From the NCBI GenBank assembly GCA_012728975.1, contig JAAYDZ010000053.1, forward strand, positions 1 to 32,623: a stretch of 32,623 nucleotides of DNA. The letters are read 5' to 3'. Within the stretch, counting starts at the first letter, position 1; each line of letters opens with the position of its first letter. The position numbers and the translations under genes are program-made. Below are positions 1,913 through 31,473 of the stretch, piece after piece. A model generated the notes under the pieces. It ran no database searches. It had not been told where the DNA came from and worked only from the letters and a program-made list of their open reading frames with translations. The DNA comes from Bacteroidales bacterium (GTDB lineage Bacteria > Bacteroidota > Bacteroidia > Bacteroidales > UBA932).

Positions 1913-1989
1913 GAGTTCTGAGTTCCGAGTTCTGAGTAAGGGGTAAGTTGTTAGTTGTCAGCTTCTGGTTTCGAGTGCGGGTTGCGAGT
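1913..1989 (+). repeat. Degenerate heptamer array, GAGTT type
   Basis: Eleven consecutive 7-nt units can be laid out without gaps: three GAGTTCY units, then GAGTAAG, GGGTAAG, TTGTTAG, TTGTCAG, CTTCTGG, TTTCGAG, TGCGGGT, TGCGAGT. The array begins two bases after the terminator. Its last part (1975-1988) is the exact reverse complement of 2052-2065 in the array that follows the convergent gene. Confidence 0.75.
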
Positions 1990-2049
1990 TTTGTGGTACT
2001 CGGTGTGACTCAATACTCCATATCACACATTGAAAACAGAGAACCAAAT

Positions 2050-2084
2050 ACCTCGCAACCCGCACCTCGCACCCGCAACACAAC
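2050..2084 (-). repeat. Degenerate heptamer array after namZ
   Basis: Five gapless heptamers on the plus strand: ACCTCGC, AACCCGC, ACCTCGC, ACCCGCA, ACACAAC. Read on the minus strand this is the GAG-type form placed directly behind the namZ stop codon. Positions 2052-2065 pair perfectly with 1975-1988 (14 bp). Confidence 0.7.
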
Positions 2085-2085
2085 T

Positions 2086-3303
2086 TTACTCCTCATACAG
2101 TAGATATGGTCTTCTTTGCTCTTTAAAGTAGGCGACATCTTCGGCCCACATTGCTTCAATTTCTTCGGCTGAGGCTCCGGACATTATCATTTTCCTGACA
2201 TAGTCTTGGCCTATGAGCAGTTCAAAAAATGAACGGAAGAAGTGGGAGTCGAGGTTGAGGTTGTTGTATGCGTCGATAAGATATTTGAGGTTTATGCCTT
2301 CAGCATTGATTTGCTCTATTGACGGCTTTGTGCGAAGATCCACTCCAAAACACTCTCTGTCGAGTTGAGGAGGATTTTTTGCTCCATCCACGCTGCGCGG
2401 TGTAAATGAATATTTGTATCCTTTCATATTGGGGTGACCATACATCTGAAATGCCTTATCGGTACCACGCCCAAGACTTACCGGAGTTGCCTCGAAGTAG
2501 CACATCGAAGGATAGAGATATATCGAACGCATATCGGGAAGGTTGGGTGAAGGTTTTACGGGCAGCACATAGCGAGATTGGTGTGTGTAATTGGTACACT
2601 TGATTACGGTAATATCGCACTGGATGCCGTCAGGCAGCCATTTCTCGCCATTTATCATCATACCCAGTTCGCCAAAGGTCATACCGTGTGCTACAGGTAT
2701 GGGTAGGTAGCCTACTGTCGATTTGTATTTCATATCGAGAATGGGTCCGTCAACATAGAATCCAATCGGATTGGGGCGGTCCATTATGATCATCTTCTTG
2801 CCATTTTTGGCGCAAGCCTCCATTGCTTTTGTCATAGTAGTGATGTAGGTATAGAAGCGACAGCCCACATCCTGAAGGTCAAAAACCATTATATCAATCT
2901 CATCCATTGTCTCTTGAGTAGGATAGCCCCCTTTGCCGTCATAGAGTGAACGGATGGGAATTCCTGTCTTTTCATCCACGGAACTGCTTACCAGTTCTCC
3001 GGCATCGGCATTGCCTCTAAAACCGTGTTCAGGCGAGAGAATGGAGACTACATTTACTTCGTGAGAAAGGAGAGTGTCTAGCAGGTGAGTGCCGTTGGAG
3101 AGGATACCGGTCTGGTTGGAGAGCAGGCATACCCTTTTTCCCTCAAGTAGAGGCAAATATTCGTCAAGTGCCTCAGCACCTACCAAAATCTGCTCCTCAG
3201 GTGCGGCTGTGGCCGTTTCATCGCTCCGGGCGGCTTTTGGGGAGCATTGGCAAATGGAGACTACAAGCACTATTGCTGCAATTGAGAAAAGGAATCGTCT
3301 CAT
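2086..3303 (-). CDS. namZ: Exo-beta-N-acetylmuramidase, NamZ/DUF1343 family
   Basis: A 405-aa exported protein. The N-terminus has a hydrophobic signal segment and cysteines at 18 and 20, so it is probably a lipoprotein although the lipobox is poor. The DUF1343 hallmarks are present in order: LLSNQTG near residue 60, LSPEHGFRG, FDLQDVGCRFYTY, DRPNPIG, and the downstream AHGMTFGELG. Characterised members release terminal MurNAc from peptidoglycan fragments; in oral Bacteroidales relatives they feed MurNAc salvage. It is the third gene of an operon, 20 nt behind tsaE. No MurNAc kinase or transporter is in the window, so the salvage role rests on family knowledge. The length is normal for the family. 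Confidence 0.88.
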   Translation of the reverse strand: MRRFLFSIAAIVLVVSICQCSPKAARSDETATAAPEEQILVGAEALDEYLPLLEGKRVCLLSNQTGILSNGTHLLDTLLSHEVNVVSILSPEHGFRGNADAGELVSSSVDEKTGIPIRSLYDGKGGYPTQETMDEIDIMVFDLQDVGCRFYTYITTMTKAMEACAKNGKKMIIMDRPNPIGFYVDGPILDMKYKSTVGYLPIPVAHGMTFGELGMMINGEKWLPDGIQCDITVIKCTNYTHQSRYVLPVKPSPNLPDMRSIYLYPSMCYFEATPVSLGRGTDKAFQMYGHPNMKGYKYSFTPRSVDGAKNPPQLDRECFGVDLRTKPSIEQINAEGINLKYLIDAYNNLNLDSHFFRSFFELLIGQDYVRKMIMSGASAEEIEAMWAEDVAYFKEQRRPYLLYEE

Positions 3304-3323
3304 AGTAAAATGGTATTAGAATT

Positions 3324-3737
3324 TTAGAATAATAGTCTTCTGGTATCAGCGTCATCTACAAGAATAGTGACCTTTAGGGTCTCCTCCGGTAATAGCTCCT
3401 CTATCATTTCCGGCCACTCTATAAAGCAGTATTTCCCCGAATCAAAATACTCGTAAAGGCCTATATCCATAGCTTCGGACAATCGGTTGATACGGTAAAA
3501 GTCAAAATGATAGAGGGGATTTCCCATCGCATCGGCATATTCGTTGACGATGGTAAAAGTGGGGCTGTTGACCACATCCCTCACTCCCAATTGGCGGCAC
3601 AATGCGGTAATAAATGTAGTCTTTCCCGCCCCCATAGAGCCGTAGAATGCGATTATCCTGCTATTACCCGCCTTTTCCAGAAAAACGCGTGCGGCTCTTT
3701 GAAGGTCGTCAGTACCGTTGATGATAATCTCAATCAT
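3324..3737 (-). CDS. tsaE: tRNA threonylcarbamoyladenosine biosynthesis ATPase TsaE
   Basis: A 137-aa P-loop ATPase needed, with TsaB and TsaD, for the t6A modification of ANN-decoding tRNAs. Visible motifs: the Walker A loop GSMGAGKTT near residue 30, the switch-like SPTFTIVNEY, YHFDFYRI, and IEWPE near residue 110. All are typical of TsaE. The open frame extends 71 codons upstream, but that part lies inside yifB in another frame; the internal ATG at 3737 gives the normal family start. Start and yifB stop overlap as ATGATTGA, so translation is probably coupled. The partner enzyme TsaC is encoded in another operon of this window (19391-20011). Confidence 0.95.
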   Translation of the reverse strand: MIEIIINGTDDLQRAARVFLEKAGNSRIIAFYGSMGAGKTTFITALCRQLGVRDVVNSPTFTIVNEYADAMGNPLYHFDFYRINRLSEAMDIGLYEYFDSGKYCFIEWPEMIEELLPEETLKVTILVDDADTRRLLF

Positions 3738-5259: not shown

Positions 5260-5305
5260 TTATTTTCTTCTTTTTTGTAACCGTTTGGTCCTGAGTTTCT
5301 AGTGG

Positions 5306-5336
5306 CAAAAATAGGTTGTGATGCTGCTCTGTGCAA
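5306..5336 (-). promoter_or_regulatory. Promoter of the yifB-tsaE-namZ operon
   Basis: On the minus strand a perfect -7 box TATTTTTG (5313 to 5306) is preceded by TTG (5336 to 5334) with 20 nt between. This gives a leader of about 40 nt before the yifB ATG. Confidence 0.65.
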
Positions 5337-5431
5337 CCCGGAGCCGTTTATACGCATTTAAATGCTAAAATTTGTGGAATTCCAAAAAAGTGACACAAAT
5401 ATCTATATGAAATCAAAAGTTTTGCACACTA

Positions 5432-5462
5432 TTGCACTTGTCAGATGAAAAATCTATTTTTG
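5432..5462 (+). promoter_or_regulatory. Promoter of the aldo/keto reductase gene
   Basis: TTG at 5432-5434, 20 nt, then the -7 box TATTTTTG at 5455-5462. Transcription should begin near 5469, so the in-frame ATG at 5445 lies inside the promoter and the real start is 5526. Confidence 0.65.
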
Positions 5463-5525
5463 TATGGTGTAATCCGCTTGTATACGGGCACAATTGTTTC
5501 AAACCATTTTCAAACATTTATACAT

Positions 5526-6839: not shown

Positions 6840-6893
6840 AACATTTAGTGCGACTTGGTTATTTTATTTTCGTACTAAGAAATATCCTTTAGA

Positions 6894-7076
6894 ATGAAAA
6901 TTCCGGAGTCAGTCAAGAAGAGGCTTGCCCATTTCTTTTGCTGTTATAGTATAGCCATTACACTCTATCTGGTGTTTAAGCCGGATACGGAAATTTGGCG
7001 AGCCATAGTCTTTTCAGCCGGCTTTGCATTAGCGTGTGTAATAGGTGCTATAATAGATGAAAAATTGAAAAAATAA
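6894..7076 (+). CDS. Small two-helix membrane protein
   Basis: A 60-aa protein: basic N-terminus (KIPESVKKR), hydrophobic helix at about 11-28, short loop with KPDTEIW, second helix at about 37-55, and a basic tail (DEKLKK). The ends point to both termini in the cytoplasm. I do not recognise the family with confidence. Similar short hairpin membrane proteins occur beside phage or cell-wall genes in Bacteroidales, but nothing here supports that role. It lies between two unrelated genes, with an AT-rich 54-nt upstream gap and no clear promoter box. Confidence 0.6.
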   Translation: MKIPESVKKRLAHFFCCYSIAITLYLVFKPDTEIWRAIVFSAGFALACVIGAIIDEKLKK

Positions 7077-7165
7077 TATCGGTCTCTACAACCGGACGAT
7101 TATCATTATTAAAGGCTTTTCAGATTGAACTAAATTGATGTTAATTTGTAATAAAAACAATAGCA

Positions 7166-8401
7166 ATGAGTAAAAGTATATGTGATATGCCGATGCCTGC
7201 ATTATCAGACATTATAAAGGCGAAAAAACTATTAGAAAAAATAGTAAAACGCACCGATTTGGAACGTAGCAAGTCATTCTCCAACATGGTAAATGCTCAA
7301 GTATATCTGAAACTTGAGAACTTACAATCTACAGGTTCATTCAAAATTCGTGGTGCTTACAACCATATTAGCAATTTAAGTCCCGAAGACAAAGAACGCG
7401 GCGTGCTCTGTGCTTCGGCAGGAAATCATGCGCAAGGTGTAGCTTATGCTGCTACAAAATTGGGAGTTAAGAGTACCGTCTTTATGCCCGAATTTGCTCC
7501 TCCGATAAAGGTTATTGCGACCAGAGGTTATGGAGCCAATGTGATTTTAAGAGGAGACAGTTTTAACGATGCCTATGAAGCCGCCATGGATTATCTTGAA
7601 GAGTCCGGAGCTGTTTTTGTTCATCCCTACAATCATCCCGATATTATAGCAGGAGCCGGCACTATAGGTTTGGAAATATTTGAACAGCTAGATGACATAG
7701 ATATGGTTTTTGTGCCCATTGGCGGTGGCGGACTTATTTCGGGAATTGCTATTGCTTTAAAAAGCATGAATCCAAACATTAAAGTTATTGGTGTTGAAGC
7801 TGAAGGTGCACATAGCATGCGGGTTTCACTTGACAATGGCGTGCTTACACCTTTTGTGTCGGGAAATACGATAGCAGACGGAATTGCAGTTAAAGCTCCT
7901 GGAAATCTCAACTTCGAAATAGTTAAAAAATACGTTGATGATGTTGTAGTGGTAAACGACAATGAAATAGCGCAAGTTTGTTTTAATTTGCTACAACGTG
8001 CTAAAAACTTATCAGAACCCTCCGGTGCTGCCTCTTTAGCGGCAATTTTAAACAAAAAAGTAGATGTTGAAAATAAAAATGTAGTTGCAGTTATTAGCGG
8101 TGGTAATATAAATACCAGTATTTTGGAGCAAATTATCGAAAAAGGTGTTATAGGACAGGGATTAAGAGCCAGAATAGCAGTTCTCATTCCCGATCAAGCC
8201 GGTATGTTAAGCCAAATTATTAGTATTTTGGAAAAATTACGCGCTTCTATTCACGATATTGAGCACGAACGTTCTATTACCAACGTTCCGGTTGGATATG
8301 TACAGGTTACAATAACCTTTAACTTGCAAGACACCTCGCAGCTAGAAATAGTAGGTAATGAGCTAAAAGCTAAGGGTTGGCAATACAAAATATTGAAATA
8401 A
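7166..8401 (+). CDS. ilvA: Threonine ammonia-lyase (threonine dehydratase) with ACT domain
   Basis: A 411-aa PLP enzyme that deaminates threonine to 2-oxobutanoate, the first step toward isoleucine or a catabolic route. The PLP lysine is K60 in TGSFKIRGAY; the phosphate-binding glycine loop IGGGGLISG is near residue 187. The C-terminal 80 residues are an ACT domain (RIAVLIPDQAGMLSQIISIL), typical of the single-ACT form around 400 aa. The gene is visibly richer in AAA, TTA and ATT codons than its flanking genes, which could mean a different ancestry or expression class. No other branched-chain amino acid genes are nearby. Confidence 0.94.
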   Translation: MSKSICDMPMPALSDIIKAKKLLEKIVKRTDLERSKSFSNMVNAQVYLKLENLQSTGSFKIRGAYNHISNLSPEDKERGVLCASAGNHAQGVAYAATKLGVKSTVFMPEFAPPIKVIATRGYGANVILRGDSFNDAYEAAMDYLEESGAVFVHPYNHPDIIAGAGTIGLEIFEQLDDIDMVFVPIGGGGLISGIAIALKSMNPNIKVIGVEAEGAHSMRVSLDNGVLTPFVSGNTIADGIAVKAPGNLNFEIVKKYVDDVVVVNDNEIAQVCFNLLQRAKNLSEPSGAASLAAILNKKVDVENKNVVAVISGGNINTSILEQIIEKGVIGQGLRARIAVLIPDQAGMLSQIISILEKLRASIHDIEHERSITNVPVGYVQVTITFNLQDTSQLEIVGNELKAKGWQYKILK

Positions 8402-8429
8402 AGTTAAGTTCCGGGTTGAGAGTAAATAG
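8402..8429 (+). repeat. Short degenerate heptamer array after ilvA
   Basis: Four gapless heptamers AGTTAAG, TTCCGGG, TTGAGAG, TAAATAG start right after the ilvA stop codon. This is the GAG-type form on the sense strand. It is short, so weaker than the other copies. Confidence 0.45.
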
Positions 8430-10810: not shown

Positions 10811-11020
10811 GTTTTTTCTAATCGGTAAGTAAAATCAGACTCCAAACCATAAAGATAGTCAATAAAACGATGTGTATCACGAATATATTGAAAGATGGGA
10901 AACCTATTTCAAGATATATTTTCCGGGAATAATAATTATTGATTACCTTTATTTCATAAAAATCCTCAACATCAACTCGCTATAAAAGAAAGGTTTTGGT
11001 TATTGAATAAAAATAGTACA
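10811..11020. other. Intergenic region between divergent GH92 and accessory island
   Basis: 210 bases, AT-rich, with no coding frame I trust. TACCTTTA at 10944-10951 is one base off the -7 consensus and could serve the island operon. On the minus strand TATCTTTA, also one base off, lies upstream of GH92. No inverted or heptamer repeat stands out. Confidence 0.4.
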
Positions 11021-11566
11021 ATGAAAAAAATAATTAAAACAATAACCATTGGCATTGTGGTAATAATCGGGCTTGTTTTAATAGCAAGACCTGCTTTGAG
11101 TTTGTATGGCGAATGTTGTGCCTATTTCGATAAAAAAGCATTTCTTGCCAAACATGAATTTGAGGATTTTGCTCAATTTAAAAATGTTTCTCTCTTTATT
11201 CGAGGTGGAGATAGCGAAAGAAATCCTATTATTGTCGTAGATGCGCCACATTTGGTTAGAGATACTTCAAAAGTGGGATATTATGTTGTAATGTTGGACA
11301 AAAGAACCCACCAGGTAAAAGAAGCAAAATGGATGACAGAATACGATATTGAAGCCGACACTCTGAAACTTCAACAATTGGTACAAACATTTATGAGGTA
11401 TAGGATACCACGCCTGGATGTAGATACAGCGGGAAATGTATTTGTTTATGTGAAAGATGTTGAGACGTTGGCATTAGTCAGATTTGCCAATGAAAATGAG
11501 TTGCAAAAACGAAGTAAAGAGACAAAATGGATTAACATTAAGTCCAATTGGTACAAGCCAAGATAA
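11021..11566 (+). CDS. Unknown membrane-anchored protein
   Basis: A 181-aa protein of unknown family. After the start MKKIIKTI comes one hydrophobic helix to about residue 22, probably a signal anchor, then a soluble region with several short strands (VSLFIRGGD, NPIIVVDAPH, GYYVVMLDKR) and a basic end. The frame is also open from a TTG at 11003, but the ATG at 11021 directly precedes the helix and is preferred. It is the first gene of an AT-rich run of closely packed small genes (16 nt to the next), which together look like a transferred accessory block. No function can be assigned. Confidence 0.65.
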   Translation: MKKIIKTITIGIVVIIGLVLIARPALSLYGECCAYFDKKAFLAKHEFEDFAQFKNVSLFIRGGDSERNPIIVVDAPHLVRDTSKVGYYVVMLDKRTHQVKEAKWMTEYDIEADTLKLQQLVQTFMRYRIPRLDVDTAGNVFVYVKDVETLALVRFANENELQKRSKETKWINIKSNWYKPR

Positions 11567-11582
11567 GTTAAACTCCGAAAAA

Positions 11583-12020
11583 ATGAAATCAATAACAAAA
11601 ATATTTTTCATTTTAGGCGTTGCTTTTTGGAGTATAGGCCTATTGTATAGTGTTTCAAAACTAATCGCATTAAATGGATTAGGAAACATTTTTGAAATGA
11701 ATGAGGCTCAAAATGCAAACACAAGAATAATCAGGGACTCAACACATATTACTATATCTTATAGATACCAAGTTGAGGAAAAAACGTATCAAGACAGTTA
11801 TAAAATGCTTATTGAATATTTTGAAAAATGTGACATTGATACCATTGCAATCAAATACAATAAACACTTTCCTATGGTTAGTTATATTGATTGTGTTCCG
11901 TTAAAATTGAGACAACAAAAAGTAGGCATGATTATATCTGCCTTTTTTATATTGTTTTTTATTTTTCTTTGGAAATTGAGCAATAAAGATAAATGGATTA
12001 AAACATATAAAGAAAAATAA
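11583..12020 (+). CDS. DUF3592-like membrane protein
   Basis: A 145-aa protein with two membrane helices (about 4-24 and 112-130) bracketing an extracytoplasmic domain. That domain shows the DUF3592 pattern: a strand pair ISYRYQVEEKTYQDS and later IAIKYNKHFPMVSYID, equivalent to the V.Y.Y.V.G..Y and V.Y.P.NP motifs of the family. DUF3592 proteins often occur near polymorphic toxin and immunity genes but have no agreed function. The frame extends upstream into the previous gene, but the ATG at 11583 gives the usual short N-terminus before the first helix. The next gene follows after 2 nt. Confidence 0.72.
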   Translation: MKSITKIFFILGVAFWSIGLLYSVSKLIALNGLGNIFEMNEAQNANTRIIRDSTHITISYRYQVEEKTYQDSYKMLIEYFEKCDIDTIAIKYNKHFPMVSYIDCVPLKLRQQKVGMIISAFFILFFIFLWKLSNKDKWIKTYKEK

Positions 12021-12022
12021 AA

Positions 12023-12367
12023 ATGAAAATTAATAGAGAAAAAGATATAGATGAGGTAAATTTCATATTTAGAATTTTTAACGTATCACCTGATGTTTAT
12101 AATTTAATTGCTAAAGATTTGGACAAAAAAATCAAGTTTTCTGTTCACGAGCAAAAATCAAATTTTAATATTCTAATTGACATTGAAAGTGTAAGTACAT
12201 CGGAAAGTATAAAAAGGATAATTAGAGACTATAAGTTAGAAGAAATAGATATTTATATTAGCCTTATCTCAACTTATGACCATGGAGGTTTGTTGGTTCC
12301 ACAAAATGTGTCTCGTATAATTAGAGATTTTGATTGTGATTTAAATTTTTCATTTGTTAGCTGTTGA
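12023..12367 (+). CDS. Small protein, weakly DUF4279-like, possible immunity protein
   Basis: A 114-aa soluble protein, very Ile/Lys/Asp-rich. It reads as two similar half-domains, each with a strand (VNFIFRIFNVSP; IDIYISLISTYDH) and a helix (DVYNLIAKDLDKK; NVSRIIRDFDCDL). The second half resembles the DUF4279 ending, in which a strand and helix follow a glycine-rich turn. I give this only as a resemblance. It sits 2 nt after the DUF3592-like gene, and its 3' end overlaps the frame of the nuclease-tip gene, which fits an immunity or accessory gene of a toxin cassette. Confidence 0.6.
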   Translation: MKINREKDIDEVNFIFRIFNVSPDVYNLIAKDLDKKIKFSVHEQKSNFNILIDIESVSTSESIKRIIRDYKLEEIDIYISLISTYDHGGLLVPQNVSRIIRDFDCDLNFSFVSC

Positions 12368-12626
12368 TATTAATATTATTCATGCATTTAGGATATGTGA
12401 TTTTGCACTTAAAGGATATCCTATTGACATGGGAAAATCTGTAAAAATTCATCACGAAGGACAAAACCCTAAGCGACCATTTAAAGAAATGCTTCCAAAT
12501 CAACATAGAGGCAAAGGAAATGATGCTATAAATCATCCAAATAAAAACAAGCCAAGTCAAATAGATCGAAAAGAGTTTAATAAAGCAAAAAAAGAATATT
12601 GGAAAAAAGAATATGAAAACAAATAA
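12354..12626 (+). CDS. Orphan HNH-type (LHH-like) toxin nuclease tip
   Basis: The reading frame runs from just after a stop at 12342 to 12626. There is no ATG before 12429, so the protein starts at TTG 12354 (90 aa) or ATG 12429 (65 aa). The conserved core is VKIHHEGQNP, PFKEMLPNQHRGKGND and INHPN, then IDRKEFNKAKKEYWKKEYE. A double histidine, a spaced third histidine and the YWxxEY tail match HNH/EndoVII-type nucleases at the C-terminus of polymorphic toxins (LHH group). The delivery domains that normally precede such a tip are missing, so this is an orphan cassette: either a short stand-alone nuclease or a displaced fragment. The stop overlaps the start of a SUKH immunity gene (ATGAAAACAAATAA, 14 nt), the usual toxin-immunity arrangement. 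Confidence 0.7.
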   Translation: MLAVDINIIHAFRICDFALKGYPIDMGKSVKIHHEGQNPKRPFKEMLPNQHRGKGNDAINHPNKNKPSQIDRKEFNKAKKEYWKKEYENK

Positions 12627-13146
12627 TTATAAACTTATGATTGAGAATATTATCAAGGAATTGAGAAAATTCTCTGATGATATTATGACATTAAACCCAC
12701 CAGTTAACACAGAATTAATTGTTAAATTTGAAAAAAAATATCAGTTGGAATTACCTAATGATTATAAATATCTATTGAGTCAATTTAACGGTATTACTTT
12801 AATGGGCGATGAAGTATTAGGTATCACTTTCTCAAACTATGGATATGACTTAGCGAGTACTTATGAATTTGAACATTTTAATGTTCAAATTCCTCAGTTT
12901 GACTATTTAATACCTTTTTCGCCAGATGGAAGAGGTAATTTTTATTGTTTTGATACAAGTAAAAAAACAAATAACGGAAACTCATGTAAGATTGTTTTTT
13001 GGTGTTCTAATCATGAGTATTCGGAAACTGATGAGCCGGAAATTACACACGATAATTTATCTGATTGTATTAGCGAATGTATTATCGGTTGGACGTTGGA
13101 AGATTATAATTATGACGGGAGCAGAAAAGTTACTTGTAATGGGTAA
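12613..13146 (+). CDS. SMI1/KNR4 (SUKH) family immunity protein
   Basis: A 177-aa cytoplasmic protein of the SUKH superfamily. The signature is FEKKYQLELPNDYKYLLSQF followed by NG near residue 55 and a downstream strand region (FDYLIPFSPDGRGNFYCFD) with the GRGN-type turn. SUKH proteins are the commonest immunity partners of nuclease toxins in polymorphic-toxin systems. The start overlaps the end of the nuclease tip by 14 nt, which strongly suggests the pair evolved together. Base composition is AT-rich like the rest of the island and unlike the peptidase and mannosidase genes on either side. Length is usual for the family. Confidence 0.88.
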   Translation: MKTNNYKLMIENIIKELRKFSDDIMTLNPPVNTELIVKFEKKYQLELPNDYKYLLSQFNGITLMGDEVLGITFSNYGYDLASTYEFEHFNVQIPQFDYLIPFSPDGRGNFYCFDTSKKTNNGNSCKIVFWCSNHEYSETDEPEITHDNLSDCISECIIGWTLEDYNYDGSRKVTCNG

Positions 13147-13241
13147 TGCTTCAGAACGTGAGTTATCGAAATAATCATCTGATTATCAAAAACAATTTTA
13201 AAGATTAGGCGTAAACGATTAAAAAAGTAGCTGCGTTGGTC

Positions 13242-13262
13242 GGCGGGATTTATAATCCCGCC
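13242..13262. repeat. Perfect palindromic hairpin, REP-like
   Basis: GGCGGGATT (13242-13250), loop TAT, AATCCCGCC (13254-13262). The stem of 9 bp is GC-rich in an otherwise AT-rich island and has no T run, so it is not a normal terminator. A decayed similar element appears at 13911-13946. Confidence 0.65.
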
Positions 13263-13393
13263 ATGTGTGCTATAAGAATCCGTCAAAAGACGGAAGCGGA
13301 AATAAAGGTGGTAAACATGACAAAGCAGAAGAACGAAGATCAAGAGAACAAAGAAAAGCGGATGAAAGAAAAACAAATAACTGTGTATTATGA
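13256..13393 (+). pseudogene. Broken C-terminal toxin tip upstream of the TPR gene
   Basis: An open frame of 45 codons with no start codon runs from a stop at 13253-13255 to TGA at 13391-13393. The translation is highly charged: KNPSKDGSGNKGGKHDKAEE followed by RRSREQRKADERK. It looks like the tail of a polymorphic toxin or its linker. Its stop overlaps the ATG of the TPR gene as ATGA, the same coupling expected for a toxin-immunity pair. I read it as the surviving 3' end of a displaced toxin gene. The family of the lost domain is not recognisable. Confidence 0.5.
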
Positions 13394-13905
13394 AATCAAA
13401 ATTTAATAAGGAACAAATCCTGCAAGAGTATTATGATACTTATCATAAAGACACGGCTAAGGCAAGAAAATTAATAAAAAAATTAGATTATAAAAATGAT
13501 CCATATCTATTATCTGAAATTGCAACTTCATATTTTGATGAGAATAAATTGAGATTAGCTGAAAGATATGCTATTAAGGCATTTGAATTAGATTATTTAA
13601 ATCCTGCCACTCTTTGGATTCTTGCTTTAGTCAAATGGGATTATGGTCAAATTGATTCCGCTATTTTTGCTTTTCAAGAAATAATTAGAATCGGCACACG
13701 CAGAATACATAAAATAGGATATAGAGAAAATAAAGATGTAGCATTGGCAAGAATAAATGATAGCAAATTTCAATTGTATAGATTATTGAAAGAAAAAAAA
13801 CCAGCCGTTGCAAAGAGATATTTGCGAGAATATGAAAAAGGAATAGAAAAGGGACTTGATACTATAGTTGATTGTTATTATCAACAAGTTAAAGCTAAAG
13901 AATAA
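13390..13905 (+). CDS. TPR-like helical protein, candidate immunity protein
   Basis: A 171-aa all-helical protein. Residues about 36-105 contain two tetratricopeptide-like helix pairs (LSEIATSYFDENKLRLAERY with AIKAFELDYLNP; LWILALVKWDYGQIDSAIFA with FQEIIRIG). The rest is a basic coiled helix bundle. No signal peptide is present, so it should be cytoplasmic. Its ATG overlaps the stop of a broken toxin tip (ATGA), so an immunity role against the lost toxin is a reasonable inference, not a demonstrated one. TPR/Sel1-like immunity proteins are known in polymorphic toxin loci. AT-rich like its neighbours. Confidence 0.7.
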   Translation: MKSKFNKEQILQEYYDTYHKDTAKARKLIKKLDYKNDPYLLSEIATSYFDENKLRLAERYAIKAFELDYLNPATLWILALVKWDYGQIDSAIFAFQEIIRIGTRRIHKIGYRENKDVALARINDSKFQLYRLLKEKKPAVAKRYLREYEKGIEKGLDTIVDCYYQQVKAKE

Positions 13906-14135
13906 GTTGCGACGGGAGGTTGGAATTTATAAGAATAACCCGTCCTAACGAATATGTAAAAATAAACGAGCCGGTTGGCAGGATTTCTTGGCAAGCCAAG
14001 CGAAGTATCGAGCGGAAGACTATCGTTATAGTTCTGCGATTGAACCAATAGCTCAATTTGGTTTGGGTCTTTATAACACGACCGGTAATAGCAAGATACT
14101 AACAGGATTAGGTGCAGCTTATTTCAGGACATGAC
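13906..14135. other. Decayed intergenic stretch with gene scrap
   Basis: The first part holds an imperfect GACGGG...CCCGTC inverted repeat (13911-13946) that resembles the better palindrome at 13242. The rest is occupied by the non-initiating coding scrap at 13949-14134. No complete gene is visible. Confidence 0.5.
13949..14134 (+). pseudogene. C-terminal remnant of an unknown protein
   Basis: A 61-codon frame without an ATG, from just after TAA at 13946-13948 to TGA at 14132-14134. The translation includes AGWQDFLASQAKYRAEDYRY, SSAIEPIAQFGLGLYNTTGN and ILTGLGAAYFRT, which has the amphipathic character of real protein, unlike shadow frames here. The start and most of the gene are gone. The parent family is unknown to me; given its neighbours it could be another toxin cassette or part of the lost delivery protein. 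Confidence 0.45.
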
Positions 14136-14177
14136 AACCCGTACTCAAAACTCGGAACTCAATACTCCTAACTAAAA
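14136..14177 (-). repeat. Degenerate heptamer array behind the S9 peptidase gene
   Basis: Six gapless heptamers on the plus strand: AACCCGT, ACTCAAA, ACTCGGA, ACTCAAT, ACTCCTA, ACTAAAA. On the minus strand this is the GAGTT form, and it directly follows and partly merges with the terminator of the minus-strand operon. Confidence 0.75.
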
Positions 14178-14207
14178 AAACTCCCTTAAGGGAGTTTTTT
14201 TAGTTAG
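14168..14207 (-). terminator. Terminator of the nagX-like/phosphodiesterase/S9 peptidase operon
   Basis: A perfect 40-nt palindrome centred at 14187/14188 (ACTCCCTT/AAGGGAGT core with T and A runs). It overlaps the peptidase stop codon. Symmetric A/T runs make it usable in both directions. Confidence 0.88.
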
Positions 14208-16720
14208 TCATTATTCATCTCTCTGATGTCCACCTCATGGCGTTTTGAGGTGCCGAGGAGCCATTCACTGTACCAGTCTGCCATTTTCCAGAAGAAATAT
14301 TCGTTCATATCTCCGAATCCGTGGCGCTGACCGGGGAGAATCAGCATCTCGAAACGCTTGTTGGCGCGGATAAGAGCATTTACAACACGCATGGTGTTAC
14401 CAGGGTGTACGTTGTCATCAATATCGCCATGGACTAGGAGCAGATGACCCTTGAGATTCTTGGCAATATCCTGGTTTTTGTCAATGCTGTACTTAAATGT
14501 AGTGTCGCCTGCTGCGGTAATCTCTTCGAGAATGCCGTGGTGCTGCTCACTCCACCATCTGTTGTACATACTGTTGTCGTGGTTACCTGCACAGGAAACG
14601 GCTGCTTTGAAGAAATCGGGATACTGAAGAATGGCGGCGGTTGACATAAATCCTCCACCGGAGTGTCCGTGGATACCCACTCTGCTGATATCAATGAAAT
14701 TATGGCGTGCGGCCAGTTGTTGGATAGCATATTTCTGATCTTCCAGTCCATAGTCGCGGAGATTGCCGTAGCCGTAGTTGTGATACCATTTGGACCTGTT
14801 GGGGTGCCCGCCTCTGTTACCTACTGTGATTACAATGAATCCGAGTTGCGAAAGACGGTCAACGCGTGTCAGACCTTTGCTCCATACCAGATTGTTGCCC
14901 TCAGTCTGGGGACCGGGATATACATAGTCGATAATGGGGTATTTTTTGTTGGGGTCGAAGTCAAATGGCTTGTACATAACACCATAGAGATCGGTAATGC
15001 CGTCAGCAGCCTTAACCTTGAAAGGTTCGGGGAATTTGTAGCCTGCTTCCAGAAGCAGGGAAATGTCTGTCTCGGCCACATCCAGCAGTTTTACACCAGC
15101 TGCGTTAAAGAGAGCTACTTTCGGTACAACATCCACTCTGGAGTAGTTGGATACAAAATATTTGCTATTGTCGGAGAAACTGACTATTGAGGAGTTGAAA
15201 CCATCGGAGTCTAGACGTTTCATGCCCGTACCGTCGAGATTGATGCGGTATACATGCCCATTGTAGGGGTTTTCGTCCTTGTTTACTCCCATTGCCAAAA
15301 AATAAACAACTCTGGCGGCTTCGTCCACGCTCAGCACACTCTCCACATGGAAAGCACCGGAAGTGATGGGGTTTTTGAGTGTGCCGTCTGAAGAATAGAG
15401 GTAAAGGTGGGCCCAGCCATTGCGCTCCGACCATTGGATGAGTTCTGTTCCGTTGTTGATTACTTCAAGCCTGCGTGTCTCTACGTAAGTATTGAGGCGT
15501 TCCTCTATGATAACTCTGCAGCTATCTTCCGCCAGATTTACGGCACAGATATCCACTCTCTTCAGATCTCGGCTGGTGCGGTAAAGATAGAATTTGCTGT
15601 TGTCACCCAGCCATTTGTATACCCTATAGTCGTCATAAGCATCTCTGTTTTTGAATGGGGCTGTCATGATGTCGATTTGCTGGTCTTTGAATGCATCCAC
15701 CCGGATTTCCCTTGAGGTTTTATCCTCCATATTGAATAGGATAAGATGCTCCTTGGGACCAGGCTCGCCTGGCATTTGATATTTGTAGCTTTCAAGGGTA
15801 GGACGTGGCAGGGAGACTGAGTTGATAACCCAGAGCTCCTTTATCTTACTCATATCATATTTGCCGATAGCAAAATGTTTGGAGTCGGGAGACCACATAG
15901 CACCTGCTGAGAAACGTTTTGTGGTGTCACTCTGGTCAGTACCCCTGTAGCTGCCGCCACCGTAATAGAAGTCTTTTGTGCCGTCGGTGGTCAGAGGGTG
16001 ATCCACTACGGTAGTGTCCTTTTCATCCTCCATCAGTTTTTTAACATCCTCAATGCTCATCCAGTAGAGGTTGTAATTTTTACTATAAACAGCAGTCTGA
16101 CCGTCGGGAGAGATACCTGCCCAACGGGGATAATCCTTTTCCTCTTCATTTTCTGTCACGTCGGTGAGTTTGCCGGAAGCGATGTCATATTCAAATCTGA
16201 ATACCTTTTTCTCCTTTTTTGGAGGAGCCTTTTTTTCTTCTTTCTTTACATCTTTCTTCTCACCATTGTCCTCTTCCTTCTTCTCCTCATTGGTTACTTC
16301 CTCTTTTTTCTTTTTTTCTTTCTTCTCCACCATCATTGTACTCTGGATTTCAAAAGTGAATTTTGTATCATCCTTGAGTTTCAGTTTGCGGAAAGGGATG
16401 TTTTGTGCATCGAAAGGATCCTTTACAATTTCCGTCAACTCCATTGCAAGTTTCTCAAGGTCGAAAACCGGTTTATGGAGCTTTGTAACAGGGTCTACCA
16501 TGTAGTAACAGCTGCCGGCCGGAGTCTTCCACTCATACCAGAATTTGTCGGAATTCTTAAACCAATTGGGTCTCATATAGGTCGAGAAGACCATATTGTT
16601 GACCTTTTTAGCCGAAAAACGATCGGCCAGTTCGTAGTTGGGCTCTGTCACCGGTACCTGTTGTGCAAAAAGCACACTAGTGAAGATAATGCCCAGAGCA
16701 AAAATTAAAGTTCTTTTCAT
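14204..16720 (-). CDS. S9 family (DPP IV-like) serine peptidase, exported
   Basis: An 838-aa exported peptidase: signal peptide (TLIFALGIIFTSVLFAQ), DPP IV N-terminal beta-propeller (about 30-580), and an alpha/beta-hydrolase domain. The triad is readable: Ser687 in GHSGGG, Asp768 in GDIDDNVHPGN, His800 in GQRHGFG. Such enzymes remove dipeptides or cleave oligopeptides in the periplasm of protein-fermenting Bacteroidales. The propeller is interrupted at about 132-172 by a run of mostly Lys and Glu (EKKEKKKKEE and repeats), which is not conserved in classical DPP IV and looks like a low-complexity insertion. It is the last gene of a three-gene operon, 11 nt after the phosphodiesterase. Confidence 0.93.
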   Translation of the reverse strand: MKRTLIFALGIIFTSVLFAQQVPVTEPNYELADRFSAKKVNNMVFSTYMRPNWFKNSDKFWYEWKTPAGSCYYMVDPVTKLHKPVFDLEKLAMELTEIVKDPFDAQNIPFRKLKLKDDTKFTFEIQSTMMVEKKEKKKKEEVTNEEKKEEDNGEKKDVKKEEKKAPPKKEKKVFRFEYDIASGKLTDVTENEEEKDYPRWAGISPDGQTAVYSKNYNLYWMSIEDVKKLMEDEKDTTVVDHPLTTDGTKDFYYGGGSYRGTDQSDTTKRFSAGAMWSPDSKHFAIGKYDMSKIKELWVINSVSLPRPTLESYKYQMPGEPGPKEHLILFNMEDKTSREIRVDAFKDQQIDIMTAPFKNRDAYDDYRVYKWLGDNSKFYLYRTSRDLKRVDICAVNLAEDSCRVIIEERLNTYVETRRLEVINNGTELIQWSERNGWAHLYLYSSDGTLKNPITSGAFHVESVLSVDEAARVVYFLAMGVNKDENPYNGHVYRINLDGTGMKRLDSDGFNSSIVSFSDNSKYFVSNYSRVDVVPKVALFNAAGVKLLDVAETDISLLLEAGYKFPEPFKVKAADGITDLYGVMYKPFDFDPNKKYPIIDYVYPGPQTEGNNLVWSKGLTRVDRLSQLGFIVITVGNRGGHPNRSKWYHNYGYGNLRDYGLEDQKYAIQQLAARHNFIDISRVGIHGHSGGGFMSTAAILQYPDFFKAAVSCAGNHDNSMYNRWWSEQHHGILEEITAAGDTTFKYSIDKNQDIAKNLKGHLLLVHGDIDDNVHPGNTMRVVNALIRANKRFEMLILPGQRHGFGDMNEYFFWKMADWYSEWLLGTSKRHEVDIREMNND

Positions 16721-19306: not shown

Positions 19307-19390
19307 TGTGCGTGTAATTTTTAGAGAATCATAGTCTGGAGTGCGAGGTTGAGTCTGTGCTTATAAGCCTTTATGCAAGTATCAGGTTTT
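19307..19390. other. Convergent gap with weak heptamer-like sequence
   Basis: 84 bases between convergent rsmE and tsaC. Positions 19334-19354 read GTCTGGA, GTGCGAG, GTTGAGT, which could be a decayed GAG-type heptamer array on the rsmE sense strand. No good terminator stem is visible. Confidence 0.3.
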
Positions 19391-25744: not shown

Positions 25745-25762
25745 CGTAGACTCTACTTTTTT

Positions 25763-25792
25763 TTGGCTATTTCGTTTTTTTGCGTACTTTTG
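25763..25792 (+). promoter_or_regulatory. Promoter of tRNA-Met
   Basis: TTG at 25763-25765, 19 nt, then TACTTTTG at 25785-25792, followed by CACTCCCAA. Geometry and downstream sequence are the same as for the tRNA-Gln promoter. Confidence 0.75.
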
Positions 25793-25802
25793 CACTCCCA
25801 AT

Positions 25803-25876
25803 GGCGAGATAGCTCAGATGGTTAGAGCGCATGATTCATAATCATGAGGTCCCGAGTTCAATTCTCGGTCTCGCTA
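25803..25876 (+). tRNA. tRNA with CAT anticodon, probably elongator Met
   Basis: A 74-nt cloverleaf. Acceptor GGCGAGA/TCTCGCT with a G-U first pair; D-arm GCTC/GAGC; anticodon arm CATGA-TTCATAA-TCATG; variable loop AGGTC; T-arm CCGAG-TTCAATT-CTCGG. It is not the initiator type (no GGG/CCC anticodon-stem pairs). An Ile2 tRNA with lysidine-modified CAT cannot be fully excluded. CCA is not encoded. Confidence 0.93.
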
Positions 25877-25878
25877 CT

Positions 25879-25912
25879 AAAAAGGCCGACTAAAAAATTA
25901 GTCGGCCTTTTT
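25879..25912 (+). terminator. Intrinsic terminator of tRNA-Met
   Basis: A perfect 15-bp stem (25879-25893 with 25898-25912, loop AAAA) with a GGCCGAC core and a terminal T run. It starts three bases after the tRNA. Confidence 0.93.
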
Positions 25913-25913
25913 G

Positions 25914-25941
25914 GTGCGTGTTGCAAGTTACGAGGTGCGGG
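25914..25941 (+). repeat. Degenerate heptamer array behind the tRNA-Met terminator
   Basis: Four gapless heptamers GTGCGTG, TTGCAAG, TTACGAG, GTGCGGG begin one base after the terminator, in the GAG-type orientation on the transcribed strand. Confidence 0.65.
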
Positions 25942-26106: not shown

Positions 26107-26114
26107 TATTTTTG
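26107..26114 (+). promoter_or_regulatory. -7 box for the TonB receptor gene
   Basis: TATTTTTG, a perfect -7 box, gives a leader of about 38 nt before the ATG at 26159. The TTG element is not visible at the usual distance. I see no cobalamin-riboswitch box in the leader. Confidence 0.5.
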
Positions 26115-26158
26115 CGTTTTCATTTTCTTAACCGAATAGTCAAGTAACCCGAAAAAAA

Positions 26159-28276: not shown

Positions 28277-28312
28277 TTGAAAATGTAGGAGGATTGCTTA
28301 ATTGTCTGACAT

Positions 28313-28356
28313 AAAGATGCTTGCGGCTATAATTTAAGTTGCATGCATCTTTTTTA
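28313..28356 (+). terminator. Terminator of the TonB receptor gene
   Basis: A 12-bp stem with one mismatch (AAAGATGCTTGC 28313-28324 with GCATGCATCTTT 28341-28352) followed by a T run. Confidence 0.65.
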
Positions 28357-28387
28357 TGTTACAAAAATGTTAAATTTTTAAAAAATA

Positions 28388-28418
28388 TTTGGAGATATAA
28401 AAATAAGCATTACCTTTG
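28388..28418 (+). promoter_or_regulatory. Promoter of the ABC/GntR operon
   Basis: TTTG at 28388-28391, 19 nt, then TACCTTTG at 28411-28418: a full match to the phylum's consensus. Transcription would start near 28425, which leaves a leader of about 175 nt. Confidence 0.7.
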
Positions 28419-28530
28419 CAGTGCCCTACTTCACTAATGCACCGATTTGCGAGGAGAAGTTTTTAAGTGGTACGAGTTACGTGAATATGTAGTGAAAAAC
28501 GAATATTTAATAAACAATTGAAAGCGAGTA

Positions 28531-28600
28531 GCCAACAACTAATGGCACTGTCTAAGCCAATAGCAAACAGCCAACAGCAAATAGCAAACAACAAACAATA
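28531..28600 (+). repeat. Heptamer array, AATAGCA/AACAGCA type, ending at the ATG
   Basis: The clear part is 28559-28600: AATAGCA, AACAGCC, AACAGCA, AATAGCA, AACAACA, AACAATA, six gapless units. The last one ends with the A of the start codon. Upstream units (28531-28558) are more decayed. The strand is nearly free of G and should stay unfolded in the mRNA. Confidence 0.75.
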
Positions 28601-29430
28601 TGATTACAATTAACAACCTCTCGTTTAAGTATGGCAAGAAAGAAGTTTTGAACGATATCTCCATGAAACTTGAAGCCGGCAAAATTTACGGACTGTTAGG
28701 AGAAAACGGAGTGGGAAAGACCACTCTCCTGAAAATTATTTCCGGACTGCAAAAACCCTGGAAAGGATCCTGTTCTGTTTTCGGAGAAGATCCGTTTAAA
28801 AGGACACCTTCTTTTTTAAGCCGTATTTTTTATTTGCCCGAAGAGTTGGAATTTATCCAAAATGATTGCTCCATTCGCTATTTTGCGAAAATAAATGCAC
28901 CTTTTTATCCTAAGTTCAATAAGGAAAAATTCGAGACAATTTTAAAAGAATTTGAGGTGGAAGGCGATAAAAAATTAAACAAACTTTCCTACGGACAGGT
29001 CAAAAAGGCAGCCTTGTCATTCGCTATCGCCACAAATGCTGAGTTGTTGCTGTTGGACGAACCGAGCAACGGCCTGGATATCCCCTCTAAAACACTCTTC
29101 CGCAGAATAATTGTACAGTATGTGTCGGATAATACCTGCACCCTGATCTCAACTCATCAGGTGCGTGATTTGGAAAACCTAATCGACCCGATTATCATTC
29201 TCGACAACAAGGCGGTACTTATGAATGCATCATTGGAGAAAATTTCAGAAAAACTCCATTTCGGACTCTACTCTTCCGTTCCTTCCAATGCTCTTTATTG
29301 GGAACCCGCTCCGGGCGGCTATATCTGCGTGATGGAAAATGATGATTTGGGAGAGAGTAAGGTAAATATTGAAGCGCTCTTCAATACCACTATGCACCAC
29401 AAAAGTCGTATCAAAGAACTTTTGGCATAG
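28600..29430 (+). CDS. ABC transporter ATP-binding protein (YtrB-like)
   Basis: A 276-aa ATPase. Walker A GENGVGKTT near residue 34, the signature LSYGQVKKA near 129 (Y in place of the usual S-G), Walker B LLLLDEPSNGLD near 150 and the H-loop STHQ near 187. The C-terminal 80 residues are a variable regulatory tail. The class matches the ATPases that pair with YtrA-type GntR regulators, which respond to cell-wall antibiotics in Firmicutes; in Bacteroidota the inducer is unknown. It is followed by a membrane partner and the regulator gene, consistent with an autoregulated exporter operon. Confidence 0.9.
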   Translation: MITINNLSFKYGKKEVLNDISMKLEAGKIYGLLGENGVGKTTLLKIISGLQKPWKGSCSVFGEDPFKRTPSFLSRIFYLPEELEFIQNDCSIRYFAKINAPFYPKFNKEKFETILKEFEVEGDKKLNKLSYGQVKKAALSFAIATNAELLLLDEPSNGLDIPSKTLFRRIIVQYVSDNTCTLISTHQVRDLENLIDPIIILDNKAVLMNASLEKISEKLHFGLYSSVPSNALYWEPAPGGYICVMENDDLGESKVNIEALFNTTMHHKSRIKELLA

Positions 29431-29478
29431 GTGCAACAAAGTAATTGATTCGTAATAATCACCTTAAAACAGATAGCA

Positions 29479-30267
29479 ATGAACAACAATATATTTCAAT
29501 TCAACAGAGTAGGGAAACTTTTCCGTAGAACGTTTCAACAAAATTCCAAAACTTTTCTAAATAATACTTTGGTTTTAGCCGGACTTCCCATCTTGTTTTT
29601 ACTTATAGCCAGATTGACATCCAATGAAGTACCTTCGCTTCTTTTCAGGAGCAACTTTTTGGCTTTTACCGTGGGAGTTATATTTATCTTTTCTCCATTC
29701 TTCTATTATTTCTACAATCATCCAAAAAAGGGGTTGTCAGAAGTGATGCTACCTGCATCGGTACTGGAGAAATTTGTAGTGATGCAAATGGTTTGCATGA
29801 TTTCCGCACCACTTATGGTTTTGGTTTTTCTGGGCGGAAGCGATGCTCTAATTACAGCGCTCTTTCCCAAGTATCAAGACGGTTACGCAATCGCTCATTT
29901 TTTTAACAACAGGCTGACTACCGACGGTGTGCTATTGGCATTTCTTTCCTTACAAGCCCTATTCTTTGCCAATCTCTTTTTTGTAAGAAGGAAAATACTC
30001 AAAAGTATCGCAAGCTTTTTGGTTATAAACTTTTTAATATCAATAATCATATTAGTGATAATTAAAGTGATGGAATCTCGCGGCTATTTTGACGCGGTGT
30101 CGTGCAATATGAGTGTTCAGTTAAACGATCGCGGTCCATTTGAATTTTACGCAGGAGATAACGCTTTGACGATGTTTGTCATGACACTAAGAATATTTAT
30201 GGGAATAGTTTTGCCGATACTCTTTATGATCGGTTCATACCGTCTAATGAAAACTAACAGGTATTGA
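29479..30267 (+). CDS. ABC transporter membrane protein, operon partner
   Basis: A 262-aa protein with about six membrane helices (clear ones near 27-45, 58-78, 100-125, 150-165, 177-198 and 232-255). The family is the loosely conserved permease type that accompanies YtrB-like ATPases; the segment NHPKKGLSEVMLPASVLEKF between helices two and three resembles that of related Bacteroidales proteins. It lies 48 nt after the ATPase and 2 nt before the GntR gene, so it is the only candidate membrane partner. Substrate unknown. Confidence 0.78.
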   Translation: MNNNIFQFNRVGKLFRRTFQQNSKTFLNNTLVLAGLPILFLLIARLTSNEVPSLLFRSNFLAFTVGVIFIFSPFFYYFYNHPKKGLSEVMLPASVLEKFVVMQMVCMISAPLMVLVFLGGSDALITALFPKYQDGYAIAHFFNNRLTTDGVLLAFLSLQALFFANLFFVRRKILKSIASFLVINFLISIIILVIIKVMESRGYFDAVSCNMSVQLNDRGPFEFYAGDNALTMFVMTLRIFMGIVLPILFMIGSYRLMKTNRY

Positions 30268-30269
30268 TT

Positions 30270-30644
30270 ATGATAAACTTTGATGAACATAAGCCCATTT
30301 ATCTTCAAATATCGGACTCGATTTGCGAGAAAATTCTCAACGATGAGTACGCAGAAGATGAACGAATACCTTCCATAAGGGAGATGGGGGCACAATTGGG
30401 GGTAAATCCCAATACCGTTATGCGCAGCTACGACCATCTAAAATCGCTCGATATTATCTACGACAAACGCGGCATGGGTTTTTTCGCATCGCCCGATGCA
30501 AAAAAGAGCGTGAAGAAGATGTATAAAAAGGAATTTATGGGGTTGGAAATGCTCTCCATTGCTAAGAAGATAAAACTGCTCGAGATTAGTTTAGATGATT
30601 TTGTAGAGAGCTTAAAAGATGTTTTGGAAGAACAAAAAAAGTAG
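30270..30644 (+). CDS. GntR family regulator, YtrA subfamily
   Basis: A 124-aa DNA-binding protein. The winged helix-turn-helix occupies residues about 10-75: HKPIYLQISDSICEKIL, then RIPSIREMGAQLGVNPNTVM and RSYDHLK. The C-terminus is a short helical dimerisation segment with no ligand-binding domain, which defines the YtrA subgroup. Such regulators usually repress their own ABC operon. A TTG in the same frame at 30264 gives two more residues, but the ATG at 30270, 2 nt behind the permease stop, is preferred. Confidence 0.92.
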   Translation: MINFDEHKPIYLQISDSICEKILNDEYAEDERIPSIREMGAQLGVNPNTVMRSYDHLKSLDIIYDKRGMGFFASPDAKKSVKKMYKKEFMGLEMLSIAKKIKLLEISLDDFVESLKDVLEEQKK

Positions 30645-30654
30645 AATGGTCATT

Positions 30655-30693
30655 TTTGGCATGAATTTTTTATAAAAAATGGATTCTGCCAAA
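30655..30693 (+). promoter_or_regulatory. Inverted repeat between GntR gene and second ABC ATPase
   Basis: TTTGGCA (30655-30661) and TGCCAAA (30687-30693) pair perfectly, and GAAT/ATTC and T/A runs inside extend the stem with bulges. There is no T tail. It may be an operator of the GntR regulator or a hairpin in the operon transcript; the two cannot be told apart from sequence. Confidence 0.4.
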
Positions 30694-30740
30694 GCAAACA
30701 ACAGCATATCTTTCTTAGTTAAAAGACAAAAATGGTTTTA

Positions 30741-30766
30741 AGCCAAAAGCAAATAGCTAATACATA
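30741..30766 (+). repeat. Short heptamer array before the second ABC ATPase
   Basis: Gapless units AGCCAAA, AGCAAAT, AGCTAAT, ACATAAT run into the ATG at 30767. The sequence type and position match the array at 28531-28600. Confidence 0.55.
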
Positions 30767-31468
30767 ATGATTTCTCTAACAAATTTACACAAATCCTACT
30801 ATACCGAAGCCATTTCGCTGCACGTACTCAAAGGTATTGACCTCACAATTGAAGAAGGCGAATATGTTTCCATTATGGGAGCATCCGGTTCGGGGAAATC
30901 CACGCTACTCAATATTATAGGAATATTAGATACCTACGATAAAGGTGAATATAGGTTAAACGGTACGCTTATCAGAGACCTTAGTGAAAAGCAGGCAGCG
31001 AAATATCGCAACGAAATGATCGGTTTCGTATTTCAATCCTTCAATCTTATCAATTTCAAAAATGCATTGGAAAATGTTGCACTCCCGCTTTATTATAAAA
31101 ATGTGGGCCGAAAACAACGCAACATCATAGCGATGGAGCATCTGGATAAAATGGGACTGAAAGATTGGGCGCATCACTTACCAAACGAACTTTCAGGTGG
31201 ACAAAAACAGCGTGTAGCCATTGCTCGCGCTATGATTTCAAATCCGAAAATCATTCTTGCCGACGAACCTACAGGAGCACTGGACAGTCAAACCACCATC
31301 GAGGTAATAGGTTTACTCACCGAATTGAACAAACAAGGCATCACCACTATCATCGTTACTCACGAACAATCGGTAGCCGATGCCACCAACCGCATAATCC
31401 GCCTGAAAGACGGCATGATCGAAAGCGACACCTCTCGCACCCCGAAACCCGCAACTCGTAACTTGTAA
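30767..31468 (+). CDS. MacB/LolD-type ABC transporter ATP-binding protein
   Basis: A 233-aa ATPase of the mechanotransmission (MacB/LolD/FtsE-like) class. Walker [10 protein letters not shown] near residue 39, Q-loop FVFQSFNL near 89, signature [14 protein letters not shown] near 143, Walker [14 protein letters not shown] near 162 and H-loop THE near 195. The normal family end is near ...[11 protein letters not shown]; the extra tail [11 protein letters not shown] and the stop codon are encoded by a heptamer repeat. It pairs with the FtsX-type permease that starts 7 nt later. Together they should drive export or lipoprotein/antibiotic handling in the envelope. Confidence 0.92.
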
Positions 31469-31473
31469 CTCGA
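31432..31473 (+). repeat. Heptamer array across the ATPase/permease junction
   Basis: Six gapless units CTCTCGC, ACCCCGA, AACCCGC, AACTCGT, AACTTGT, AACTCGA, followed by AA and the permease ATG. The ATPase stop codon (31466-31468) lies inside the array. Confidence 0.8.

Follow-up and report, generated by a model that had tools for sequence, protein, structure and literature searches.

Degenerate heptamer arrays whose G/T-rich strand mostly points outward from gene borders in a Bacteroidales genome and in other bacteria

The window analysed here is a 32,623-nucleotide (nt) stretch of DNA from a Bacteroidales bacterium (assembly GCA_012728975.1, contig JAAYDZ010000053.1), contig 45 of a 1.83 Mb genome in 76 contigs. 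Its gene content includes NamZ, GH92, a DPP-IV-like peptidase and a TonB-dependent receptor. Along it lie arrays of degenerate, gapless 7-nt units, and these heptamer arrays are the subject of this report. We found that the G/T-rich strand of an array nearly always leads away from the closest gene border, whether this is a start or a stop.

An initial annotation of the window had listed eight array sites, all taken to be intergenic, and a further weak one near 19334. We scored each intergenic region by its best lag-7 run against 1000 dinucleotide shuffles of that region. Four of the eight sites proved clear and two moderate, while the other two did not rise above the shuffles (Table 1); the weak site near 19334 (score 2, p 0.99) fell away as well. 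The array at 1913-1989 starts directly after a terminator-like hairpin with a T-run (about 1871-1912) and is faced by the array at 2050-2084. Another terminator-like hairpin adjoins the array at 14136-14177. Where the window has the array at 28531-28600, the related genomes G044 and G019 carry shorter or different sequence. The stretch at 8402-8429 is found in G019 and missing from G012. A possible array birth may be seen upstream of the ABC ATPase gene at 28600, where G044 (L242 14735-14757) reads CGAGTTGCGAGTTGCGGGTTGCGAGG and the window at 28277-28599 reads CGATTTGCGAGG.

Table 1. Sites in the window scored for period-seven structure (p from dinucleotide shuffles, for lag 7 and for any lag from 5 to 11)
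Feature	Position	Strand	Context	Score	p, lag 7	p, lags 5-11
Heptamer array	1913-1989	G/T strand +	Points away from stop of gene 639-1853 (+)	22	0.001	0.001
Heptamer array	2050-2084	G/T strand -	Points away from stop of NamZ gene 2086-3303 (-)	9	0.004	0.021
Claimed array, not above chance	8402-8429	+	After stop of gene 7166-8401 (+)	3	0.70	
Heptamer array, moderate	14136-14177	G/T strand -	Past stop of DPP-IV-like gene 14204-16720 (-)	8	0.021	0.13
Claimed array, not above chance alone	25914-25941	+	After tRNA-Met terminator	6	0.28	
Heptamer array, AATAGCA dialect	28531-28600	G/T strand -, A/C-sense	Reaches start of ABC ATPase gene 28600-29430 (+)	23	0.001	0.001
Short heptamer array, AATAGCA dialect, moderate	30741-30766	G/T strand -	Reaches start of ABC ATPase gene 30767-31468 (+)	9	0.014	0.10
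Heptamer array	31432-31473	G/T strand -, A/C-sense	Overlaps 3' end of ABC ATPase gene 30767-31468 (+)	16	0.001	0.001

The arrays are not confined to intergenic DNA. That at 31432-31473 codes for the last residues of its ABC ATPase, a tail that differs in G019, and stops just short of the next start (31476). Other arrays in coding sequence are read as C-terminal tails, and two supply linkers, one in DnaX and one in a sigma-54 activator (translated at L046 3466-3571 and L026 18604-18735, respectively). The DnaX with the array linker matches NCBIfam PRK14971 above its cut-off; the gene-side part of this array is retained in G012, G016 and G019, and the remainder differs.

Period seven holds on the scale of the genome. 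Intergenic lag-7 identity was 0.310, compared with 0.280 for shuffled intergenic sequence (z 15), and harmonics appeared at 14, 21 and 28, which bears out the predicted period-7 excess; with the window left out, the value was 0.309. Lags 2 and 3 were likewise raised (z 11 and 6). In a sample of one third of the genome (606,248 non-N bases), we counted 49 lag-7 segments outside genes and 7 inside. Segments outside genes at lags 4, 5, 6, 8, 9, 10, 11, 12, 13 and 15 numbered 2, 4, 2, 1, 1, 3, 3, 2, 2 and 4, respectively, and the harmonic lag 14 gave 29. Runs of N, which fill 13 of the contigs entirely and are short at a few loci, were kept out of the array counts.

For orientation, each period-7 segment was assigned a direction from its G+T content, without regard to the sequence dialect of the units, and this direction was read relative to the closest called gene border. 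Genes came from a home-made caller, with greedy open reading frames (ORFs) for two further sets, one of named loci and one of additional Bacteroidota. In the sample of the source genome, the G/T-rich strand pointed outward in 43 of 51 polarised arrays (binomial p 7e-7; the best of 10,000 permutations reached 39). Pooling six related genomes, with orthologous sites included and unpolarised arrays omitted (10 of 133 in the score-13 list), gave 124 outward of 148, made up of 89/109 near 3' ends and 35/39 near 5' ends. Named loci were picked out by searching both strands for a GAGTT pattern (80 loci among at least 118 stretches), and all counts for them apply among the matches listed. Their record titles name Bacteroidota, Cyanobacteria, Chloroflexi, Planctomycetes, Gammaproteobacteria, Acidobacteria, Nitrospira, Desulfonema, Armatimonadetes, Fibrobacter, Clostridia, Patescibacteria and others. 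After omission of 53 segments without polarity, 42 within ORFs and 24 at edges, 105 remained, and 87 of these pointed outward (47/61 at 3' ends and 40/44 at 5' ends). Outside Bacteroidota and Cyanobacteria, a group set by record titles that includes Ignavibacteria and two unnamed-bacterium records, the count was 23 of 24. The additional Bacteroidota, which use other dialects, gave 44 outward of 55 (35/46 without nine rows from close relatives), once 23 duplicates, 13 segments within ORFs, 12 without polarity and 4 at edges had been omitted.

The same rule governs order within a gap. In gaps holding both orientations, the G/T array lay on the left and the A/C array on the right in all 23 cases from the pooled relatives, in 16 of 18 among the named loci, and in all nine from the additional Bacteroidota, two of them from close relatives. 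G/T-polarised 35-mers outside arrays had no such orientation toward genes, pointing outward in 166/312 cases at 3' ends and 201/396 at 5' ends; because of this, the outward rule belongs to the arrays. General composition near genes was rejected as an explanation: with arrays masked, outward G+T was 0.51-0.53 in 3' flanks and 0.49-0.56 in 5' flanks, and it was 0.43-0.60 in a small array-free sample.

Under this rule the G/T-rich strand is the sense strand after stops and the antisense strand before starts. The initial annotation had described GAGTT-rich arrays after genes and AACTC-rich arrays before them, a pattern that is one symmetric outward rule seen from each end. Tabulated against flanking gene direction, orientation was indeed non-random and tied to gene ends. 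Control by the direction of transcription was not supported, since tandem gaps filled by an array held 5 G/T-sense and 4 A/C-sense cases. If transcription or translation alone produced the rule, one sense should prevail.

Stop codons play a part in array placement. In counts that include orthologous sites, G/T arrays at 3' ends overlap the stop codon in 37 of 59 cases. Stops that adjoin an array are TAG in 34 of 59 cases, compared with 317 of 1342 for stops elsewhere. A TAG stop adjoins 16 of 21 TAGT-dialect arrays, so that the unit matches the adjoining codon, which speaks for the growth process proposed below. The overlap and the TAG enrichment also lend weight to selection on orientation, the strongest rival to that process and one that we regard as serious if somewhat unlikely. 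It holds that slippage would make both orientations, and that G/T-sense arrays before starts (false starts, G-rich sites) and A/C-sense arrays across gene ends (no stop codon) would then be removed. Bacteroidota favour A-rich leaders. Consistent with selection, A/C-sense arrays outnumber G/T-sense arrays within 60 nt of starts (32 vs 9), and the 20 nt outward of starts are T-rich even without arrays (0.41 T). Yet arrays whose measured start lies past the stop still point outward in 22 cases against 2, array starts being known only to a few bases. In convergent gaps, arrays at least 6 nt from the stop do so in 17 of 19 cases, with neither starts nor stops at stake. The near balance of senses in tandem gaps and the lack of polarity in non-array stretches also tell against selection.

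We then considered the units themselves. Over 92 arrays, the G/T-rich strand has the composition A 0.18, C 0.08, G 0.36 and T 0.37. In a register picked to favour such a pattern, the units follow the grammar N-R-K-T-N-N-N (R, A or G; K, G or T), with T at position 4 in 85% of them. There are 335 distinct sequences among 808 units. The commonest are TAGTGTG, GAGTTCT, TAGTATG, GAGTATG and TAGTGGG, followed by rotations of GCGGGTT-like units. No three-G run occurs in the first four of these, although GGGT-type units do occur; quadruplexes are not needed as an explanation, because the commonest units lack G-runs. Dialects switch inside one array with the phase kept, and many loci have dialects in common. 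Adjacent units have an identity of 0.73, which drops to about 0.47 at eight units, with an off-phase level of 0.28. Each unit thus looks like a bad copy of its neighbour. This decay and the local pattern of copying support a repeat-expansion process, one of the possibilities raised by the initial annotation, as the likely source.

The recurrence of dialects at many loci might instead reflect dispersal, either by copying of arrays between loci (gene conversion or transposition) or because the arrays are stem-loop elements. Rehm et al. note for other heptamers that stem-loops could arise from convergent pairs (PMC4692102), and in a Nostoc intron degenerate heptamers fold by pairing into a hairpin (PMC3488679). 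However, a non-trivial 21-mer was common to only 1 of 1064 within-genome locus pairs, against 10 of 93 orthologous pairs. The two arms within one gap were no more alike than swapped arms (0.24 vs 0.31). Dispersal is contradicted at the 21-nt scale and on the whole appears most improbable; copying of shorter patches is possible, and a hairpin rationale for facing arms seems unlikely from these comparisons. Repetitive extragenic palindromic (REP) elements and bacterial interspersed mosaic elements, miniature inverted-repeat transposable elements and hairpin elements in general were rejected on the same grounds, as arms are not complementary beyond swapped controls and copies between loci are not alike. 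The pattern suggests that arrays are products of a repeat-making process and not dispersed copies of an element.

Presence of arrays is all-or-none among close relatives. Across 40 genomes of the genus, an AGTNNKN heptamer pattern gave 75-195 matches in seven (G000, G005, G012, G016, G019, G044 and G045; control pattern 0-5) and none in 33. A dialect-blind scan of array-free relatives found zero lag-7 segments in 213,043 bases (five stretches and 24 loci). In a midpoint-rooted tree of the DPP-IV-like protein from 30 genomes, six of the seven array-rich genomes group as a single clade (support 98/100). This protein is missing from the assembly of the seventh, G045, which groups with the other array-rich genomes by DnaX identity. 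DnaX is 86-100% identical among the seven; the next full-length match has 66%, and partial matches reach 79%. In Bacteroidota at large, 226 of 392 genomes had at least one AGTNNKN match, a count read without the reversed control pattern, which itself matches other heptamer dialects.

Within the array-bearing relatives, array sites and their polarity persist between species while the units are rewritten. At orthologous sites, the polarity was the same in 51 segment matches and opposite in five; inspected by eye, four of the five were the facing arm of the other gene and one was a true switch. The comparison of orthologous junctions called for by the initial annotation thus came out as conserved placement with turnover of units. 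The gap at 1853-2086 illustrates this: its left array is common to three species, including G012 and G019, and in G019 its right arm is in a different dialect and the intervening unique DNA is missing. The pooled relatives hold 148 arrays across 920 gaps, a density biased by the selection of some of their stretches for holding arrays.

Since the outward rule coincides with mRNA ends, a function at these ends or at gene borders has to be weighed. A protein or RNA might read G/U-rich 3' tails and A/C-rich 5' leaders, or outward G/T strands might be Chi- or RecA-like recombination signals; RecA prefers G/T-rich strands. Translational roles have been proposed for TAACTGA arrays before starts (MacGregor 2015, PMC4679880). 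Against a function stand the rewriting of units and copy numbers between close species, the many array-free junctions in the same genomes and the arrays within coding linkers. We consider it improbable, and a role at mRNA ends is not needed to explain the arrays.

We tentatively propose, with rather less than even confidence and from sequence comparison, that the arrays could arise by local, error-prone growth in which G/T-rich 3' ends extend away from gene borders by 7 nt at a time. Starting at the edge of DNA protected by selection, such as a stop codon, a start codon or a terminator, an array would grow outward, or do so again following a break. The growing 3' end would be the G/T-rich strand, and each step would copy about 7 bases from the preceding unit with many errors. 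Because each step would miscopy the preceding unit, neighbouring units would be alike, distant ones would share a loose grammar and dialects would drift. Two borders facing across a gap would yield G/T on the left and A/C on the right, like two telomere ends joined head to head. We infer the 3'-end growth, a break or gap as its trigger and a polymerase activity that is postulated. As to the step of seven, Rehm et al., citing Mrazek et al. 2007, give the length of DNA held in the polymerase active site as the reason (PMC4692102).

Several observations weigh against this growth account. 1) The outward rule weakens with distance: named-loci 3' arrays more than 30 nt from genes point outward in only 9 of 16 cases, and those of the relatives in 3/5 (++ gaps), 3/9 (-- gaps) and 8/9 (+- gaps). 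2) The two named-loci gaps with the reverse order are both cyanobacterial. 3) Array sites within a clade are not independent, and the gene calls are home-made. 4) Alignments of orthologous arrays extend further from the gene-side (G/T 5') end in 53 cases and from the other end in 9, with 26 tied. This gradient agrees with growth at the G/T 3' end but is confounded by the coding gene-side flank and reduced to 13 vs 6 where both borders align; the sigma-54-activator array shows the opposite gradient. 5) Searches of the 40 genus genomes for RVT_1, Ku and Y-family proteins reveal no enzyme that tracks the arrays.

The candidates searched for can be taken in turn. Ku was found in 0 of the 40 genomes, so end joining by Ku was rejected. 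Gain of a Y-family polymerase was rejected as well, the family being present in 36 of 40 (6/7 array-rich and 30/33 array-free). For Y1 transposases, including REP-associated tyrosine transposases (RAYT), the link is reversed: the genes occur in 1 of 7 array-rich genomes against 26 of 33 array-free ones. RVT_1 occurs in 12 of 40, that is in 2 of 7 array-rich (G019 and G045) and 10 of 33 array-free genomes, and a reverse transcriptase as the writer was rejected. It was not matched in G000, G005, G012, G016 and G044, although a very divergent reverse transcriptase could escape the search.

This distribution bears on a templated writer, whereby a telomerase-like or DRT10-type reverse transcriptase would add heptamers from an RNA template. 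In eukaryotic telomeric and interstitial repeats, a short G/T-rich unit runs 5' to 3' toward the end and stands head to head at joined ends. The arrays share this strand polarity and head-to-head order. They differ from telomeres in that there are no chromosome ends, the units decay and five of the seven array genomes have no RVT_1 reverse transcriptase. DRT10 produces tandem-repeat cDNA, with a repeat of 9 nt for one system and other lengths reported, by iterative re-alignment, a feature that would be shared here (PMC12632851). It needs a reverse transcriptase and an RNA template, whereas reverse transcriptases do not track the arrays. The gradual decay of units and their many variants also differ from one template repeated, and we regard a templated writer as very improbable.

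The arrays fit a class of bacterial intergenic heptamer repeats that have period seven, lie mostly outside genes and carry the G-rich strand outward. For GGGAATC repeats of Xanthomonas and GGGGA(C/T)T repeats of Nostoc, the G-rich strand is sense within 50 bp after stops and antisense within 50 bp before starts (PMC4692102). For two Xanthomonas genomes Rehm et al. 2015 report both this polarity and convergent pairs, of which there are 70 and 75; for one Nostoc genome they report the polarity with few pairs, and they leave the function open. Outward polarity is therefore not new as such, contrary to the initial annotation, which knew of no description of it. The present arrays resemble those heptamers in period, mostly intergenic position, outward G-rich strand, convergent pairs and shared sites that vary in length and sequence between species. 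In contrast to that nearly fixed unit with G-runs forming quadruplexes in vitro, they mostly lack G-runs, mix dialects and are all-or-none between close relatives.

TAACTGA direct repeats occur in Beggiatoaceae, Cyanobacteria and some Bacteroidetes, with arrays before start codons (MacGregor 2015, PMC4679880). They too are mostly intergenic heptamers of patchy distribution, mainly with the A/C strand toward starts (G/T outward). Unlike the present arrays, they have one fixed unit, related heptamers seldom form direct repeats in the genome described and stop-side arrays are few; TAACTGA and its rotations are absent from our 25 commonest units. The heptanucleotide short tandemly repeated repetitive (STRR) sequences of cyanobacteria (Calothrix; cited in PMC4692102) are likewise tandem heptanucleotides in a bacterium. 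Searches of openly licensed papers brought up none that extends the rule to degenerate heptamers lacking G-runs or to a range of phyla. What is new here is that the rule covers units without G-runs and many phyla, and that the arrays look locally made.

Accounts of bacterial heptamers have so far been scattered, treating them as regulatory sites, quadruplexes or slippage products. A single rule, comprising outward G/T strands, independent facing arrays, locally copied units and all-or-none presence, seems to cover heptamers in many phyla. This raises the questions of what process extends DNA from gene borders seven bases at a time and of what switched it on in this clade. A bolder extension, which we think quite unlikely, is that many phyla might share a DNA-end activity without reverse transcriptase or Ku: a self-templated, error-prone, G/T-rich seven-base 3' extension, similar to telomere healing, that clades would switch on and off and whose scars would mark gene borders with fixed outward polarity. 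Should end growth prove true, the arrays would be a record of repaired breaks and a source of new protein tails and linkers.

Elsewhere in the window, the segment with tRNA-Met and its terminator (25754-25911) has the opposite orientation to its flanks in G019 and G044 and is collinear in G012, with the claimed array at 25914-25941 at its edge. The region 10818-14135 is poorly coding, with few genes called. The gap at 13905-14204 has an extra open frame in G016 and is perhaps a region of small-gene exchange.

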